Assembly (NCBI RefSeq): GCF_017745095.1
Contig: NZ_JAGHZZ010000004.1
Coordinates: forward strand, 310,001-374,000
Source: Sporocytophaga sp.
GTDB taxonomy: Bacteria > Bacteroidota > Bacteroidia > Cytophagales > Cytophagaceae
Direction: 5' to 3'
Length of the DNA: 64,000 nucleotides
Below are positions 25,624 to 30,894 of this stretch, in pieces. Within the stretch, counting starts at the first letter, position 1. Every line of letters begins with the position of its first letter. The position numbers and the translations under genes are program-made. The notes beneath the pieces are model-generated. The model searched no databases, was not told where the DNA came from, and was given only the letters and a program-made list of their open reading frames with translations.

Positions 25624-26427
25624 ATGAAGTTAGGTTTTGCTAAAAGTCTTTTGTTGGGATTGTTGATTTTACTGTCTTCATGCAGTGAGTTTCAGCGAGT
25701 TCAAAAAAGTTCAGACGTCAACAAAAAGCTGGAGGCTGCGCTGAAATATTATGAGAAAAAGGATAATTACAAAGCCAATGTCCTTTTAGAAGAAATCATG
25801 CCTTTGTTAAAAGGCCGACCTGAAGCTGAAAAAGCACAATTTGTATTTGCCAATACTTATTTTAATGATAAGCAGTATATCATGAGCAGCTATTACTTTA
25901 AGGATTTGTATGAAACTTATCCAAGAAGTGAATATGCGGAAGAAAGTATGTATATGCATGTAAAGTCTCTTTACATGGACAGTCCTTCCTACAAACTTGA
26001 TCAGGGAAATACCGATGAGGCAATGCAGACAATTCAGATGTTTGGCGTGAAATATCCTCAAAGCAGTCATATGGAAGAGGTGAACAGTATGACTGATGAA
26101 CTAAATGCGAAAACAGAGTACAAGGCATTTGAAAACGCAAAACTCTATTATAAGATTGGCATTTATAAATCAGCTGTTGTAAGTCTTGGAACTTTTCTAG
26201 ATAGGTATCCTTCTGGTAAATTTGCAGAAGAAGCTACGTTTATACAGTTTCAGGCACAATATAATTTAGCTAAGCACAGTGTATTGAGATTGCAAAGAGA
26301 AAGATATAATACAGCGCTTGAATTTTATTATGGGTTTATCGATAGATTCCCTGAAAGCAAATTCAAAAAAGAGGCTGAAGAGTTATATGATAGGATTACA
26401 GAACGTTTAAAGAATTTTCAAAGCTAA
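25624..26427 (+). CDS. bamD: Outer membrane assembly lipoprotein BamD
   Basis: BamD is the essential lipoprotein partner of BamA in inserting beta-barrel proteins into the outer membrane. The 267-residue product has a lipoprotein signal ending LLILLSSC (lipobox Cys near residue 20) and five TPR-like helical pairs, such as KANVLLEEIMPLLKGRPEAEKAQFVFANTYFNDKQYIMSSYYFKDLYETYPRSEYAEESMYM. Length is typical. Its stop codon overlaps the start of the next gene by one base (TAATG), so bamD and the omega-like gene are translationally coupled. Confidence 0.93.
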   Translation: MKLGFAKSLLLGLLILLSSCSEFQRVQKSSDVNKKLEAALKYYEKKDNYKANVLLEEIMPLLKGRPEAEKAQFVFANTYFNDKQYIMSSYYFKDLYETYPRSEYAEESMYMHVKSLYMDSPSYKLDQGNTDEAMQTIQMFGVKYPQSSHMEEVNSMTDELNAKTEYKAFENAKLYYKIGIYKSAVVSLGTFLDRYPSGKFAEEATFIQFQAQYNLAKHSVLRLQRERYNTALEFYYGFIDRFPESKFKKEAEELYDRITERLKNFQS

Positions 26428-26756
26428 TGAACAATAAAGCAAAAGTTACTACTATTCCATCGTCAATAGTGACGAGAGATCTTGAAAAGTTATCTGCACC
26501 TACGGGAAATATTTATGAATCACTAGTGGTTGTGGCAAAGAGATCAAGACAAATTTCTTCAAAAGTAAAAGAAGAATTGAATAACAAATTGGCTGATTTT
26601 GCTTCTACAGTTGATAATCTTGAAGAAATCTTTGAAAACAGAGAGCAGATAGAGATTTCCAAGTTCTACGAAAGAATGCCAAAACCAACTAATATGGCTA
26701 TCGAAGAGTTTTTCGAAGGAAAAATTCATTTCAGAAAGCCTAACGAAGAGAAATAA
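26427..26756 (+). CDS. rpoZ: RNA polymerase omega subunit (Rpb6-like)
   Basis: The Bacteroidota form of the omega subunit, which binds beta' and helps core assembly. The 109-residue protein shows the Rpb6/omega pattern SIVTRDLEKLSAPTGNIYESLVVVAKRSRQISSKVKEELN (about 13-52), where the helix with AKRSRQI corresponds to the conserved ARRARQL of E. coli omega. The C-terminal half (about 60-109) is a lineage-specific extension. It starts one base inside the bamD stop codon and is followed by coaBC, a gene order conserved in this phylum. Confidence 0.85.
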   Translation: MNNKAKVTTIPSSIVTRDLEKLSAPTGNIYESLVVVAKRSRQISSKVKEELNNKLADFASTVDNLEEIFENREQIEISKFYERMPKPTNMAIEEFFEGKIHFRKPNEEK

Positions 26757-26765
26757 TTTATGTGA

Positions 26766-27980
26766 ATGATGCTTCGCGGAAAAAAAGTTATACTTGGTGT
26801 TTGCGGGAGCATTGCGGCATATAAAGCAGCTTTATTAACAAGACAATTGATAAAAGAAGGAGCAGAGGTTCAGGTAATACTGACACCCTCTGCTTCTTCT
26901 TTTATTGGGCCACTTACATTTTCAACACTTACCGGAAAGCCTGTCTATAATTCTTTAATCAGGAATGATGCGGGAGAGTGGAATAATCATGTAGATCTTG
27001 CCTTGTGGGCAGATCTAATTCTTATAGCACCGGCCACCGCAAATACAATTTCCAAGTTGGCTAATGGTGTATGCGATAACCTCCTAACAGCAGTTTATCT
27101 TAGTGCAAAGTGTCCTGTAATGTTCGCTCCGGCAATGGATCTGGATATGTACCGGCATCCGGCTACCAAGGCTAATATTGAAAAGCTTAAATCCTATAGC
27201 AATATTATTATTGATGCCGAATTCGGATTTTTAGCAAGTGGCCTTGAAGGAGAAGGGCGTTTAGCCGAGCCTGAACATATTACAGATTTTGTAAAAAGAT
27301 ATTTTCAGAAAAATACCCAGCTAGCAGGGAGGAAAATAGTGGTTACAGCAGGACCAACCTATGAACCACTCGATCCAGTAAGGTTTATTAGCAATCATTC
27401 AACCGGAAAAATGGGTTATGAAATTGCTCATCAGCTTGATCAATTGGGAGCTTCTGTCACTTTGATATCAGGTCCTACAGCACTAAAATCTCCTTCTGAT
27501 TCTGTTAAATTAATGAAAGTGCAAAAGGCCGAGGAAATGTATAATGCGGTGATGACAAATGTTCCGGATGCAGATGCTATAATACTTTCAGCAGCTGTGG
27601 CAGATTATACTCCGAAAGAAGTTGCATTACAGAAGATCAAAAAGAAAGATGGAGAACTGAGCATAGACCTGATAAAAACCAAAGATATTGCGGCAGCAGT
27701 TGGGGCTAACAAAAAAACAGGCCAGGTATTGGTTGGATTTGCTTTAGAAACTGAAAATGAAATTCAGAATGCTTCAGTGAAGCTTGCAAATAAAAACCTT
27801 GATTTTATCGTACTTAATTCTCTTAGAGATGACGGAGCAGGTTTTGGATTCGATACCAATAAGGTAACATTTATTGATAAATACAATATGGTGCAGACTT
27901 TTGAGTTAAAAAGTAAGAAAGAAGTTGCTTCTGATATCATCAGTGAGTTGCTGAAGCATCTGGATCTTAAAAAGAAATAA
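26766..27980 (+). CDS. coaBC: Bifunctional phosphopantothenoylcysteine synthetase/decarboxylase
   Basis: CoaBC carries out two steps of coenzyme A synthesis: ligation of cysteine to 4'-phosphopantothenate (CoaB, C-terminal) and flavin-dependent decarboxylation (CoaC, N-terminal). In the 404 residues the CoaC half has GVCGSIAAYKA (about 11-21), the active-site His in NHVDLALWAD (about 76), and PATANTISKLANGVCDNLL (about 91-109). The CoaB half begins near 188 with VVTAGPTYEPLDPVRFISNHSTGKMG. Start at 26766 or the adjacent ATG at 26769 makes no functional difference. It follows the omega gene by 9 bp. Confidence 0.95.
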   Translation: MMLRGKKVILGVCGSIAAYKAALLTRQLIKEGAEVQVILTPSASSFIGPLTFSTLTGKPVYNSLIRNDAGEWNNHVDLALWADLILIAPATANTISKLANGVCDNLLTAVYLSAKCPVMFAPAMDLDMYRHPATKANIEKLKSYSNIIIDAEFGFLASGLEGEGRLAEPEHITDFVKRYFQKNTQLAGRKIVVTAGPTYEPLDPVRFISNHSTGKMGYEIAHQLDQLGASVTLISGPTALKSPSDSVKLMKVQKAEEMYNAVMTNVPDADAIILSAAVADYTPKEVALQKIKKKDGELSIDLIKTKDIAAAVGANKKTGQVLVGFALETENEIQNASVKLANKNLDFIVLNSLRDDGAGFGFDTNKVTFIDKYNMVQTFELKSKKEVASDIISELLKHLDLKKK

Positions 27981-28051: not shown

Positions 28052-28954
28052 ATGAAAAAGTACTTAATAGCTCTGATTTTTATACTTACAAATTTGATTT
28101 CTTTTGCTCAGCAGGGTGAGTTGAATTGTACCATTACTATTGATGCTGAAAGTATTGAAAATAGTGAGAAAAAGGATGTTATGACTCAGTTGAAGGCAGC
28201 CATGTTGGAGTTCATGAATAACAAAAGGTGGACAACTGATGAATATAAACCGGAAGAGAGGATTAACTGCAACATTATTATCACACTTACAGGAGTTTCC
28301 GGTCAGAGTCTGTACGAGGCTACGGCCATGATTACTTCTACAAGACCTTTATATAACACCAATAAGGAAACTATGATTCTCAAATTCCTGGACAGGAAGT
28401 TTAATTTTGAGTATGTAGAAGGAAGTGCGATTTATTATACTGAAAATTCTTTTAATGGTAATCTTACAGCAATGCTTTCTTATTATGCCTACATGATCCT
28501 GGCTATGGATTATGATACCTTTGGGCAAATGGGGGGGACAAAATATTATGAGAAAGCCAGAGATATTGCAAACATAGCTCAATCTTCCCAGGCAGTGGGA
28601 TGGGATCAGTTGGAGACAAACGGCAGATTTTCATTAATTCAAAACCTTACCAATACTCAGTTTGCTCCATTTAGAGAAGGTCTATACATTTATCATCGCC
28701 AGGCAATGGATAAATTTTTGATAAATGCAGACCAAAGCAGAAAAGATATCATCACTGTCTTTGATAAAATAAAAACTGTGTATAACATCAATCCAACTTC
28801 AGTAGTAATTAAGAATTTTTTTAATGCTAAAGTGGAGGAAATAATAAATATTTATTCTCAGGCCACTCCTGAAATGCGTCAGCAGGTTGTAAATACTCTG
28901 CGACAGATGGATCCCCTGAATGCGGATAAATATAATAGGCTTCTTAAGCTCTGA
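28052..28954 (+). CDS. DUF4835 family secreted protein
   Basis: The 300-residue protein starts with a signal peptide (MKKYLIALIFILTNLISFAQ) and has the DUF4835 pattern: an early ELNCTITIDAESIENSEK strand pair, then LKAAMLEFMNNKRWTTDEYKPEERINCNI, and a central NLTAMLSYYAYMILAMDYDTFGQMGG. The family is restricted to Bacteroidota and normally sits between coaBC and recN, as here; its function is not established. There is no lipobox, so it is probably periplasmic or outer-membrane associated. Confidence 0.85.
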   Translation: MKKYLIALIFILTNLISFAQQGELNCTITIDAESIENSEKKDVMTQLKAAMLEFMNNKRWTTDEYKPEERINCNIIITLTGVSGQSLYEATAMITSTRPLYNTNKETMILKFLDRKFNFEYVEGSAIYYTENSFNGNLTAMLSYYAYMILAMDYDTFGQMGGTKYYEKARDIANIAQSSQAVGWDQLETNGRFSLIQNLTNTQFAPFREGLYIYHRQAMDKFLINADQSRKDIITVFDKIKTVYNINPTSVVIKNFFNAKVEEIINIYSQATPEMRQQVVNTLRQMDPLNADKYNRLLKL

Positions 28955-29005
28955 TCATTCTTCACTCTATCTATTTTTATTAAATTAGCATATAATTTAA
29001 TAAAA

Positions 29006-29233
29006 ATGGGAAAAAGGCTTATCCGCATACCTGCTAAGGACATTCCTTCCAAAATATCCACTGTGGTTTCGAAAGAAATCAATATCATCATGCACGACCA
29101 GACAACTCTTTTTGGATGTCTTGTTTCGGCAGATGATCAAAAGCTTTTGCTCAAAGACTCCAGATTGGATCTACACCCCATTGATTTTAAGAACATTCGT
29201 GAAATAATTTACGATTATACAGCCTCTTTTTAA
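29006..29233 (+). CDS. Small protein with a candidate Sm/Hfq-like fold
   Basis: A 75-residue protein between DUF4835 and recN, ending 2 bp before recN, so it is part of that operon. Residues about 24-50 (INIIMHDQTTLFGCLVSADDQKLLLKDS) fit the Sm1 pattern: hydrophobic strand, G at the turn, h-x-x-x-D, then a hydrophobic strand. Residues 59-69 (IDFKNIREIIY) fit the Sm2 pattern (hydrophobic-x-x-I-x-x-I). A basic N-terminus (MGKRLIRIPAKD) precedes it. Hfq and other LSm proteins are rings that bind RNA. This is a pattern match by eye only; the Hfq signature KH is not present. Confidence 0.5.
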   Translation: MGKRLIRIPAKDIPSKISTVVSKEINIIMHDQTTLFGCLVSADDQKLLLKDSRLDLHPIDFKNIREIIYDYTASF

Positions 29234-29235
29234 TT

Positions 29236-30894
29236 ATGCTTAAAAATCTTTTAATCAGGAACTATGTCCTGATCAGCGAGCTGGAACTGCAACCGTCATC
29301 GGAGTTAAATATTGTAACAGGCGAAACAGGAGCAGGAAAGTCTATCATGCTGGGTGCTCTTGGTTTGTTGCTTGGTAACAGGGCCGATGTAAAAGTACTT
29401 TTCAATGAAGAAGAAAAATGTATCATTGAAGGTGCTTTTGATATTTCAGGATATGAAATTGAGGATCTTTTCAAAGAGGAGGATCTTGATTATGAAACGC
29501 TGTGTCTGGTAAGACGAGAAATAGCTCCCAGCGGCAAATCCAGAGCTTTCGTAAACGATACTCCGGTAAATCTTGATTTTCTTAAAAAACTGGGGCAAAG
29601 ACTAATGGATGTACATAGTCAGCACGAAACGCTCATGCTAGGCGCATCTTCATTCCAGATTGGAATTGTTGACGCCTTTGCAGGAAATAAAAATTTGCTG
29701 ACAGAGTATAAAAAGCTTTATAAAGAATTTAAAGATAAAGAAGCAGAACTTGTTGATGTTACAATACAAGCAGAAGAATCATCAAAGCAACAGGACTTTA
29801 ATACTTTTCTTTTGAGTGAATTGGAGGAAGCTAATTTACAAAGCGGGGAGCAGGAAAAGTTAGAAGAGGATCTTAAGCTGCTTGAAAATTCAGAAGAAAT
29901 TAAAAGTAAACTTAATCAGATGGTCAGTATCCTTTCTGAATCTGATCAGGCAAGTATTGCGGTTTTGCAGACAGTCAATAAATTGTTTGATGGTATTGTA
30001 AAGTATTCTCCATCCTATGAAAAACTTCGCGAACGTTTTCAAAGCATTGTAATAGAGTTAAAAGATATCAATGGAGAGCTTGAAGAAGCTGAACAACAGA
30101 TAGATTATTCACCTGAAAAAATTGAAGAGAAAAGAGAACGTCTCAGCTTAATTTACAAGCTTGAAAAGAAACATCATGTAAATACAATTGAAGATCTTAT
30201 AGCAATTCAGGAAGACCTTGAAAATAAAGCCGGTGCTAATTCAGATCTTTTTGAGAAGATCGAAATATTAAAAGTTGCATTAGTAAAACTGGAAAAAAGT
30301 TTGCGGGAAAAAGCAGTTAAACTAAGCAATCAGAGAACTAAAGTGATACCAGGCATTAAGAAGGAACTAGAATTATTACTTAAAGAGGTGGGAATGCCAA
30401 ATGCTACTATGCATATTCATTCAGACACCACCGAGCTAGGTCCATTAGGGATTGATAAAATCAATTTCCTGTTTAGTGCCAATAAAGGTATCGCACCGGA
30501 AGAACTTAAAAATGCAGCTTCGGGAGGAGAGTTCTCAAGACTGATGCTGTGTATCAAGTACATGTTAGCTGATAAGTCTTCATTGCCAACTATTGTATTT
30601 GACGAGATCGATACCGGTATTTCCGGAGAGGTAGCGTTTAAGGTTGGTAAGATGATGAAGCAAATGTCTAAAAACCACCAGGTGATTGCAATCACCCATT
30701 TGCCTCAGATTGCGGCGCAAGGATCTGCACATTACTTTGTATATAAAGATCATTCAAGTAAAAGATCAGTGAGTAAAATAAGAGAATTAACGAAAGAAGA
30801 TCGTGTTAAGGAAATTGCACAGATGATAGGAGGAGAGAAACCATCAGAAACTGCAATGAAGAATGCGAAAGAACTGTTGGAAATCAACGAGTAA
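29236..30894 (+). CDS. recN: DNA repair protein RecN
   Basis: RecN is an SMC-like ATPase that acts at DNA double-strand breaks. The 552-residue protein has the Walker A motif GETGAGKS (29-36) at the N-terminus, a Q-loop region (VHSQHETLML), a central coiled coil (about 160-370), and the C-terminal ABC signature ASGGEFSRLMLC followed by Walker B TIVFDEIDTGISGE. It starts 2 bp after the Sm-like gene. Confidence 0.97.
   Translation: MLKNLLIRNYVLISELELQPSSELNIVTGETGAGKSIMLGALGLLLGNRADVKVLFNEEEKCIIEGAFDISGYEIEDLFKEEDLDYETLCLVRREIAPSGKSRAFVNDTPVNLDFLKKLGQRLMDVHSQHETLMLGASSFQIGIVDAFAGNKNLLTEYKKLYKEFKDKEAELVDVTIQAEESSKQQDFNTFLLSELEEANLQSGEQEKLEEDLKLLENSEEIKSKLNQMVSILSESDQASIAVLQTVNKLFDGIVKYSPSYEKLRERFQSIVIELKDINGELEEAEQQIDYSPEKIEEKRERLSLIYKLEKKHHVNTIEDLIAIQEDLENKAGANSDLFEKIEILKVALVKLEKSLREKAVKLSNQRTKVIPGIKKELELLLKEVGMPNATMHIHSDTTELGPLGIDKINFLFSANKGIAPEELKNAASGGEFSRLMLCIKYMLADKSSLPTIVFDEIDTGISGEVAFKVGKMMKQMSKNHQVIAITHLPQIAAQGSAHYFVYKDHSSKRSVSKIRELTKEDRVKEIAQMIGGEKPSETAMKNAKELLEINE

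Follow-up and report, generated by a model that had tools for sequence, protein, structure and literature searches.

An unnamed family of stand-alone small beta-barrels with a predicted Sm fold, one member of which is encoded between porD and recN in Sporocytophaga

The DNA analysed here (the window) is a stretch of 64,000 nucleotides from Sporocytophaga sp. (contig NZ_JAGHZZ010000004.1, positions 310,001 to 374,000). It contains a gene run, all on the forward strand, composed of the genes for a BamD/YfiO-type lipoprotein, an rpoZ-like protein, coaBC, porD/DUF4835, a protein of 75 residues and recN (Table 1). The open reading frame (ORF) of 75 residues, proposed in a reading of the sequence only, was found exactly at the positions indicated there, with its start and stop codons on the forward strand. 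Its location between DUF4835 and recN was also confirmed, since porD ends 51 nt before the ORF and recN starts 2 nt after its stop codon. DUF4835 corresponds in NCBIfam to the type IX secretion protein PorD (NF052317), and in this run a gene for secretion therefore stands together with rpoZ, coaBC and recN.

Table 1. Genes of the run and elements of the 75-residue protein, in window coordinates
Feature	Position	Strand	Basis
BamD/YfiO-type outer-membrane lipoprotein, same gene run	25624..26427	+	PF13525 1.9e-15
rpoZ-like, RNA polymerase Rpb6/omega family, same gene run	26427..26756	+	PF01192 1.4e-14
coaBC (DFP and flavoprotein domains), same gene run	26766..27980	+	
porD/DUF4835, upstream neighbour	28052..28954	+	PF16119 2e-91; T9SS_PorD NF052317 1.1e-93
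CDS of the 75-aa protein (predicted Sm superfamily)	29006..29233	+	ATG at 29006, TAA 29231-29233, stop included
Extra N-terminal strand (beta0), residues 4-9 (RLIRIP), outside the five-strand Sm core	29015..29032	+	DSSP, AF2 model
alpha1, residues 10-20	29033..29065	+	DSSP, AF2 model
beta1, residues 24-29	29075..29092	+	DSSP, AF2 model
beta2, residues 34-42, with conserved Gly37	29105..29131	+	DSSP, AF2 model; alignment
beta3, residues 46-50	29141..29155	+	DSSP, AF2 model
beta3-beta4 loop (L4), residues 51-57 (DSRLDLH), conserved D-x-R-x-x-x-H	29156..29176	+	alignment
beta4, residues 56-60	29171..29185	+	DSSP, AF2 model
beta5, residues 64-71, with conserved E66 and D70	29195..29218	+	DSSP, AF2 model; alignment
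recN, downstream neighbour	29236..30894	+	TIGR00634 1.9e-136

The dN/dS values of 0.05-0.12 obtained in four genomes of the window's genus indicate a protein-coding gene on which purifying selection is strong. Its homologues are 72-84 aa long in an alignment of 94 sequences, most of them start with M-G-K-R or M-S-K-R, and the closest named match, from a Sporocytophaga MAG, shows 96% protein identity. The ORF is short and has no curated-family match over cut-off, as would be expected of a spurious, non-coding frame between two genes, but this explanation is refuted by the dN/dS values, by the conservation of length and sequence across many families and by the confident predicted fold, and its probability is practically nil. 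One reverse frame over 29006-29233 was read and contains a stop, and no support was found for a 70-aa ORF on the opposite strand (28879-29091) that partly overlaps the gene. Promoter-like sites numbered 26 vs 18.6 (sd 5.0) in shuffles, and terminator-like sites 4 vs 3.0; neither count was given weight. A phage origin was discarded, as the single sequence had no match in the phage collection and the model of the protein had none at E<=0.001 in the viral structure library.

The search with the single sequence revealed a family match in 11 of 39 relatives, and a profile made from those relatives gave matches in 81 of the 291 genomes searched in the order. The profile used thereafter (A8, 94 sequences) matched 128 of 390 Cytophagales genomes. 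Of these, 112 were counted as true (E 1.6e-7 or better), after removal of 15 genomes with a best match of E>1e-6 and of genome G023, where the match corresponded to a 393-aa frame; the family was thus not found in 278 of the 390 genomes at the sensitivity of this profile. In a sample of the phylum, matches were obtained in 102 of 395 genomes, 100 of which were counted once two weak ones (G061 and G325) had been dropped. The sample of the class (n=295) yielded 34 matches, 23 of which (E 1.3e-5 to 1e-3) were dropped. The 11 strong matches, two in Cytophagales and nine outside the order, indicate that the family is patchy in the class. Six of the dropped weak matches were inspected (four from the class sample and two from Cytophagales), one of them, in G041, being a second match in an already counted genome; all six were read as RimP by eye, and Pfam identified RimP in the three that were scanned. 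Thirteen carriers lie outside the class. Nine of them (families f37, f35, f48 and f69) encode the FMO antenna protein (PF02327), which we take as a marker of green sulfur bacteria, and they are for that reason assigned to this group; PF02327 was absent from the other four (families f40 and f32).

The profile also gave weak matches to larger frames. Several Cytophagales genomes (G061, G112, G145, G226, G256, G166, G087, G238 and G946) contain frames of about 960-1005 aa that match profile positions 24-65 with E values of 7e-5 to 1e-3, perhaps because the large protein includes a further small barrel. Contigs C5 and C17 of G023 contain two frames (367 and 393 aa) in which the profile gave three weak matches, perhaps repeated small barrels.

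The genomic context was compared in 80 Cytophagales genomes (the 81 profile-positive ones less G023), with flanks mostly of about 1.5 kb per side. In 70 of them porD and/or recN lies within 0.9 kb of the family gene: porD before and recN after in 49, recN only in 18 and porD only in 3, with maximal gaps of 0.7 kb for porD and 0.9 kb for recN. Nine of the ten genomes with neither gene belong to a single genus-level group (g40; loci L072, L075, L080, L083, L086, L089, L093, L095 and L096), and their proteins start with MRKTNKR or MRKGTKR. The three g40 loci examined also contain, near the family gene, a long ORF that starts with the motif IRNxVxVPKYxLP. Elsewhere in the class, porD was present upstream in L214 and L220 and recN downstream in L215-L217, and neither was present in the stretch fetched for L218, L219 and L221. 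In the members at the last three loci (family f75), several residues are inserted into the L4 loop. A different context was found outside the class, where greA and tpiA share one strand within the fetched stretch at 39 of the 46 loci examined, greA alone is present at two, and neither is present at five, from families f40 and f32; in green sulfur bacteria the family gene is located between greA and tpiA.

In genomes without a family match, the porD locus was obtained in 24 of the 26 searched. In nine of these loci porD and recN are adjacent (17-298 nt) with no family member between them, so overlooked copies were discarded as an explanation there; the gap of 298 nt contains a 61-aa frame that matches the family profile at chance level (E 8.0). 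The remaining 15 loci are uninformative, because recN was outside the fetched stretch. The varying gene context, together with the porD-recN pairs devoid of a family member, indicates that the neighbourhood is a housekeeping place and not a fixed partner. The sequence-only reading had suggested a widely conserved locus, and this description suits the position of the gene, beside porD and/or recN in 70 of 80 Cytophagales carriers, but has to be restricted as regards the occurrence of the family, in 112 of 390 Cytophagales genomes and in nine genomes outside the order among 295 of the class. As a side observation, the family gene also adjoins recN in contig CALPQG020000140.1 (L041), titled as a Bifidobacterium breve MAG; the protein is identical to that of genome G104 of the Cytophagales set (L073), and the title looks wrong.

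Structure prediction with AF2 gave models with a mean pLDDT of 84.9 for the Sporocytophaga protein and of 89.5 for the member from Pontibacter roseus. Both models show the same order of elements, namely an N-terminal strand (residues 3-9 in P. roseus), then alpha1, and then five strands, the last two of which (beta4 and beta5) are separated by a helical turn. The models are not independent, as the same 19 sequences, ordered differently, were used for both. Structure searches with the Sporocytophaga model retrieved Hfq (Z 9.6, rmsd 1.8, 60 residues aligned, covering residues 11-72) and the C-terminal domain of RimP (5gl6_A; Z 9.4, rmsd 2.8, 72 residues aligned). The RimP match spans residues 1-75 and includes the extra N-terminal strand; the two Z values are tied, and structure scores do not separate the two candidates. 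For the P. roseus model, Hfq was at the top (Z 8.9), a designed small barrel reached 8.4, and RimP was absent from the 50 entries listed. The best Foldseek match of both models was Synechocystis Hfq 3hfo (E 2.8e-3 and 2.9e-3), and no match to the PDB was obtained at E<=0.001 for either of them. These results support a predicted Sm-superfamily fold for the 75-aa protein, that is, the five-stranded Sm barrel put forward from the sequence plus an additional strand. The Sm-fold claim holds at the level of the models; an Hfq-like ring does not follow from such a fold.

No match to the PDB was obtained by phmmer with the single sequence, and no Pfam or NCBIfam cut-off was reached by the 75-aa protein or by members among the matches listed. 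The LSM model (PF01423, cut-off 23.4 bits) scored 12.2 bits with the 75-aa protein and at best 16.0 bits with seven other members scanned singly, and its best E value among 72 members was 0.00032. LSM was also the Pfam model most often touched by these 72 members at E<=0.1 (20 members), followed by SM-ATX (7), DUF6897 (7), RimP C-domain (5), DUF4828 (5), LSM14 (3) and Hfq (1). When the family profile was run against PDB sequences, the top match was the SmAP 1m5q, over residues 15-45 (E 2.1e-6 with profile A5 and 7.6e-6 with A8). The 28 matches of A8 at E<=1 comprised 21 Sm/LSm/EDC3 chains, two Hfq-like chains from Methanococcus jannaschii, two designed barrels, one RimP and two others; RimP, at 0.25, was far behind the best Sm-type chain. 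The family thus shares with Sm/LSm/SmAP proteins its best match to a solved chain and its most-touched Pfam model, and differs from them in a score below the LSM cut-off, in the absence of the R-G Sm2 signature and in the extra N-terminal strand.

The resemblance to Hfq (PF17209) resides in the predicted alpha1 helix and five bent strands over residues 11-72 and in a similar one-domain size, whereas the KH/YKHAI motif and the glutamine of the alpha1 site are missing and the N-terminal strand is added. The Hfq models PF17209 and PRK00395 did not match the 75-aa protein; one of the 72 members touches PF17209 below its cut-off (E 0.012, 15.7 bits vs 27), and this member scores 13.0 bits with PRK00395 (cut-off 95). 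Since the cut-off is not reached and the KH motif is absent, membership in Hfq was rejected. On the other hand, the barrel-only protein resembles the SH3/Sm-like C-terminal domain of RimP (PF17384, DUF150_C-type barrel, cut-off 26.3 bits), touched at E<=0.1 by 5 of 72 members (best E 0.0012), in a structure match that includes the extra strand and in profile-profile probabilities of 95 and 94. These compare with 35 and 65 for the family vs Hfq and 6 for Hfq vs RimP, a comparison that favours RimP because the Hfq alignment (13 sequences, Neff 2.9) is shallower than the RimP alignment (16 sequences from the same order, Neff 4.0). An Hfq match was present in 89 plasmid records, 12 of which were retrieved; for RimP, 23 loci were considered, L148 had no ORF, and 16 of the remaining 22 were aligned. 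The 75-aa protein differs from RimP in having no RimP_N domain. A replacement of RimP was rejected, as the host has a RimP-type ORF of 171 aa elsewhere in its genome (G000 contig C5) and RimP occurs together with a family member in 17 of 29 relatives; two of these 17 RimP matches are below the cut-off of their family.

Two further families matched over the barrel among the matches listed, DUF6897 (PF21838; best single-member match 1.9e-5) and the MM0924 family (NF041655; 9.7e-6). Their scores, among the matches listed, were 13.4-15.3 bits vs a cut-off of 23.9 and 13.2-22.8 bits vs 45, respectively, and neither title names a function. Altogether, we read these proteins as a branch of their own within the Sm superfamily and not as divergent Hfq: they form an unnamed family of small Sm-superfamily beta-barrels that stand alone as single-domain proteins. 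The initial designation as Sm/Hfq-like is retained in its first half, sustained by the AF2 models, the structure search and the profile matches to the PDB, but not as Hfq membership, given the lack of KH and the profile-profile probability of 35-65.

The most conserved polar positions in the 94 sequences are K3, R4, R7, D51, R53, H57, E66 and D70. The basic N-terminus noted from the sequence is a family trait (K3 in 87/94, R4 in 84/94 and R7 in 76/94), and conservation is also high in the L4 loop (D51 in 84/94, R53 in 63/94, H57 in 78/94) and in beta5 (E66 in 74/94, D70 in 79/94). The last residue is aromatic in 69/94. Loops L3 (43-45) and L5 (60-63), which bind U-rich RNA in Hfq and Sm rings, are unconserved. 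By offset, the Y-K-H-A-I site of Hfq corresponds to residues 60-64, of which 60-63 vary and contain no conserved K-H, in agreement with the reported absence of the KH signature, and residue 64 keeps I/V/L; in the 13 real Hfq sequences aligned, K56 and H57 do not vary. The site equivalent to Hfq Q8, mapped by structure-match offset only, is residue 13, occupied by I/L/V in 83/94. Regarding the two Sm motifs read by eye, the Sm1 pattern of hydrophobic strands with a glycine in beta2 is present (Gly37 in 86/94) and beta4-beta5 do lie at IDFKNIREII, but the R-G-N/D signature of Sm2 before beta5 is lacking, positions 60-63 being variable. An Hfq-like mechanism is therefore not supported by these data, since the RNA-contact positions are unconserved, the RimP C-domain is about as close as Hfq or closer, and the additional strand may occupy the edge that forms the ring.

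The possible placement of the additional strand was addressed by mean-field covariation (94 rows, effective number 81). The pairs R7-E66 and D51-H57 ranked first, with R4-D70 among the top ones, and beta0-beta5 had the highest summed strand-pair covariation with or without the 18 green sulfur rows. The sums for the two directions of pairing were too close to tell them apart, at 3.6 for antiparallel vs 3.4 for parallel in all rows, and 3.1 vs 3.2 without the green sulfur rows. The charged pairs R7-E66 and R4-D70, which lead the beta0-beta5 signal, are both compatible with antiparallel pairing, with register sums of 73 and 74. Positions 7 and 66 are R/E in 74/94 sequences and I/R or I/K in 17/94, and R4 and D70 are lost jointly in five rows of one group. 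As each pair reflects about one evolutionary event, with one-sided exceptions, this covariation is only a hint that beta0 may lie on the outer edge of beta5, the ring-building edge in Hfq. In Hfq and Sm rings, beta5 pairs with beta4 of the next subunit (beta4-beta5'). If beta0 does lie on beta5, the canonical ring would fail to form, or the strand would have to move away.

The reading that we prefer, to which we attribute about an even chance of being right, is that the 75-aa protein is a small Sm barrel that binds RNA or a ribonucleoprotein and resembles the RimP barrel rather than the Hfq ring; as its N-terminal strand probably runs along beta5, it would be monomeric or form an oligomer of a non-canonical kind. 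The protein would be co-produced with its housekeeping neighbours and would bind RNA or an RNA-protein machine such as the ribosome or the transcribing polymerase, through a putative surface made up of the N-terminal strand, with its conserved basic residues K3, R4 and R7, and of the L4 loop (D51-x-R53-x-x-x-H57). The RNA pocket of Hfq and Sm pores would not be used, its mode of action would be closer to that of the RimP barrel than to the Hfq ring, and its function may be a housekeeping role in translation or transcription. This reading is supported by the conservation of the N-terminal strand and L4 while L3 and L5 are unconserved, and by the neighbours of the gene, among them rpoZ in the window and, in green sulfur bacteria, greA; it is weakened by the fact that some Sm-fold proteins bind proteins only.

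A functional Hfq/LSm protein, that is, a homo-oligomeric ring whose RNA-contact residues have diverged and which acts as RNA chaperone in these bacteria devoid of Hfq, is doubtful, though it deserves consideration. It agrees with Hfq as the top structural match, with the one-domain size, with a SmAP as the best sequence match, with the conserved hydrophobic positions of beta5 and with the distribution of Hfq itself: none of 296 genomes of the phylum had Hfq over the cut-off and the host genome had no match, which bears out the premise that Bacteroidota lack a recognisable Hfq (two weak matches, below cut-off and with internal stops, were not counted). Such a ring is nevertheless hard to reconcile with the missing KH, the unconserved L3 and L5 and the I/L/V residues at the Q8 site, with a weak profile match to Hfq and with an extra strand that may cap beta5. 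In addition, a general chaperone would not be expected to be missing, at the sensitivity used, from as many as 278 of 390 Cytophagales genomes.

As a third possibility, a protein-binding small barrel (an SH3-like adaptor with no RNA role, for instance for RecN, the type IX secretion system or RNA polymerase) appears unlikely to us. The frequent vicinity of porD and recN in Cytophagales (70 of the 80 genomes) would suit such an adaptor, and divergent small barrels are capable of protein binding: the Hfq of cyanobacteria, with the structure 3hfo as the best Foldseek match, acts on a pilus protein. The adaptor is at odds, however, with the greA/tpiA context of green sulfur bacteria, with the one Cytophagales genus that carries the gene away from porD and recN, and with the porD-recN pairs that have no family member.

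The preferred reading of an RNA- or ribonucleoprotein-binding barrel bears on a recognised gap. A study on Bacteroides (2020) reports no obvious Hfq or ProQ homologue and invokes an "alternative, elusive RNA chaperone" (PMC7366714), and the RNA-binding proteins described in Bacteroides and Porphyromonas are RbpB and an RRM protein (PMC11697453, PMC12119571). No description of the family was present among the open-licence papers listed. Considering that Hfq is over cut-off in none of the 296 genomes of the phylum, that the host has a RimP-type ORF and that no such description was listed, we regard these proteins as an Sm-superfamily family yet to be characterised, distinguished by the additional strand and by a conserved surface of its own. 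With nine carriers outside Cytophagales among 295 genomes of the class, the family leaves the question of the gut Bacteroides unanswered. Even if its members did not bind RNA, they would represent a conserved family not covered by Pfam or NCBIfam models in these scans. An Sm-fold protein conserved in part of the phylum is a direct and testable candidate for small-RNA handling without Hfq. A wider proposal, rather improbable at present, is that Hfq and RimP are joined by one more lineage of Sm-type RNA-binding proteins in bacteria. It would serve part of the Cytophagales and the green sulfur bacteria in general RNA binding, with a surface of its own for RNA, composed of the basic N-terminal strand and the L4 loop, and with an assembly unlike that of Hfq. 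If true, it would be an unrecognised post-transcriptional factor in an Hfq-less part of the bacterial tree.
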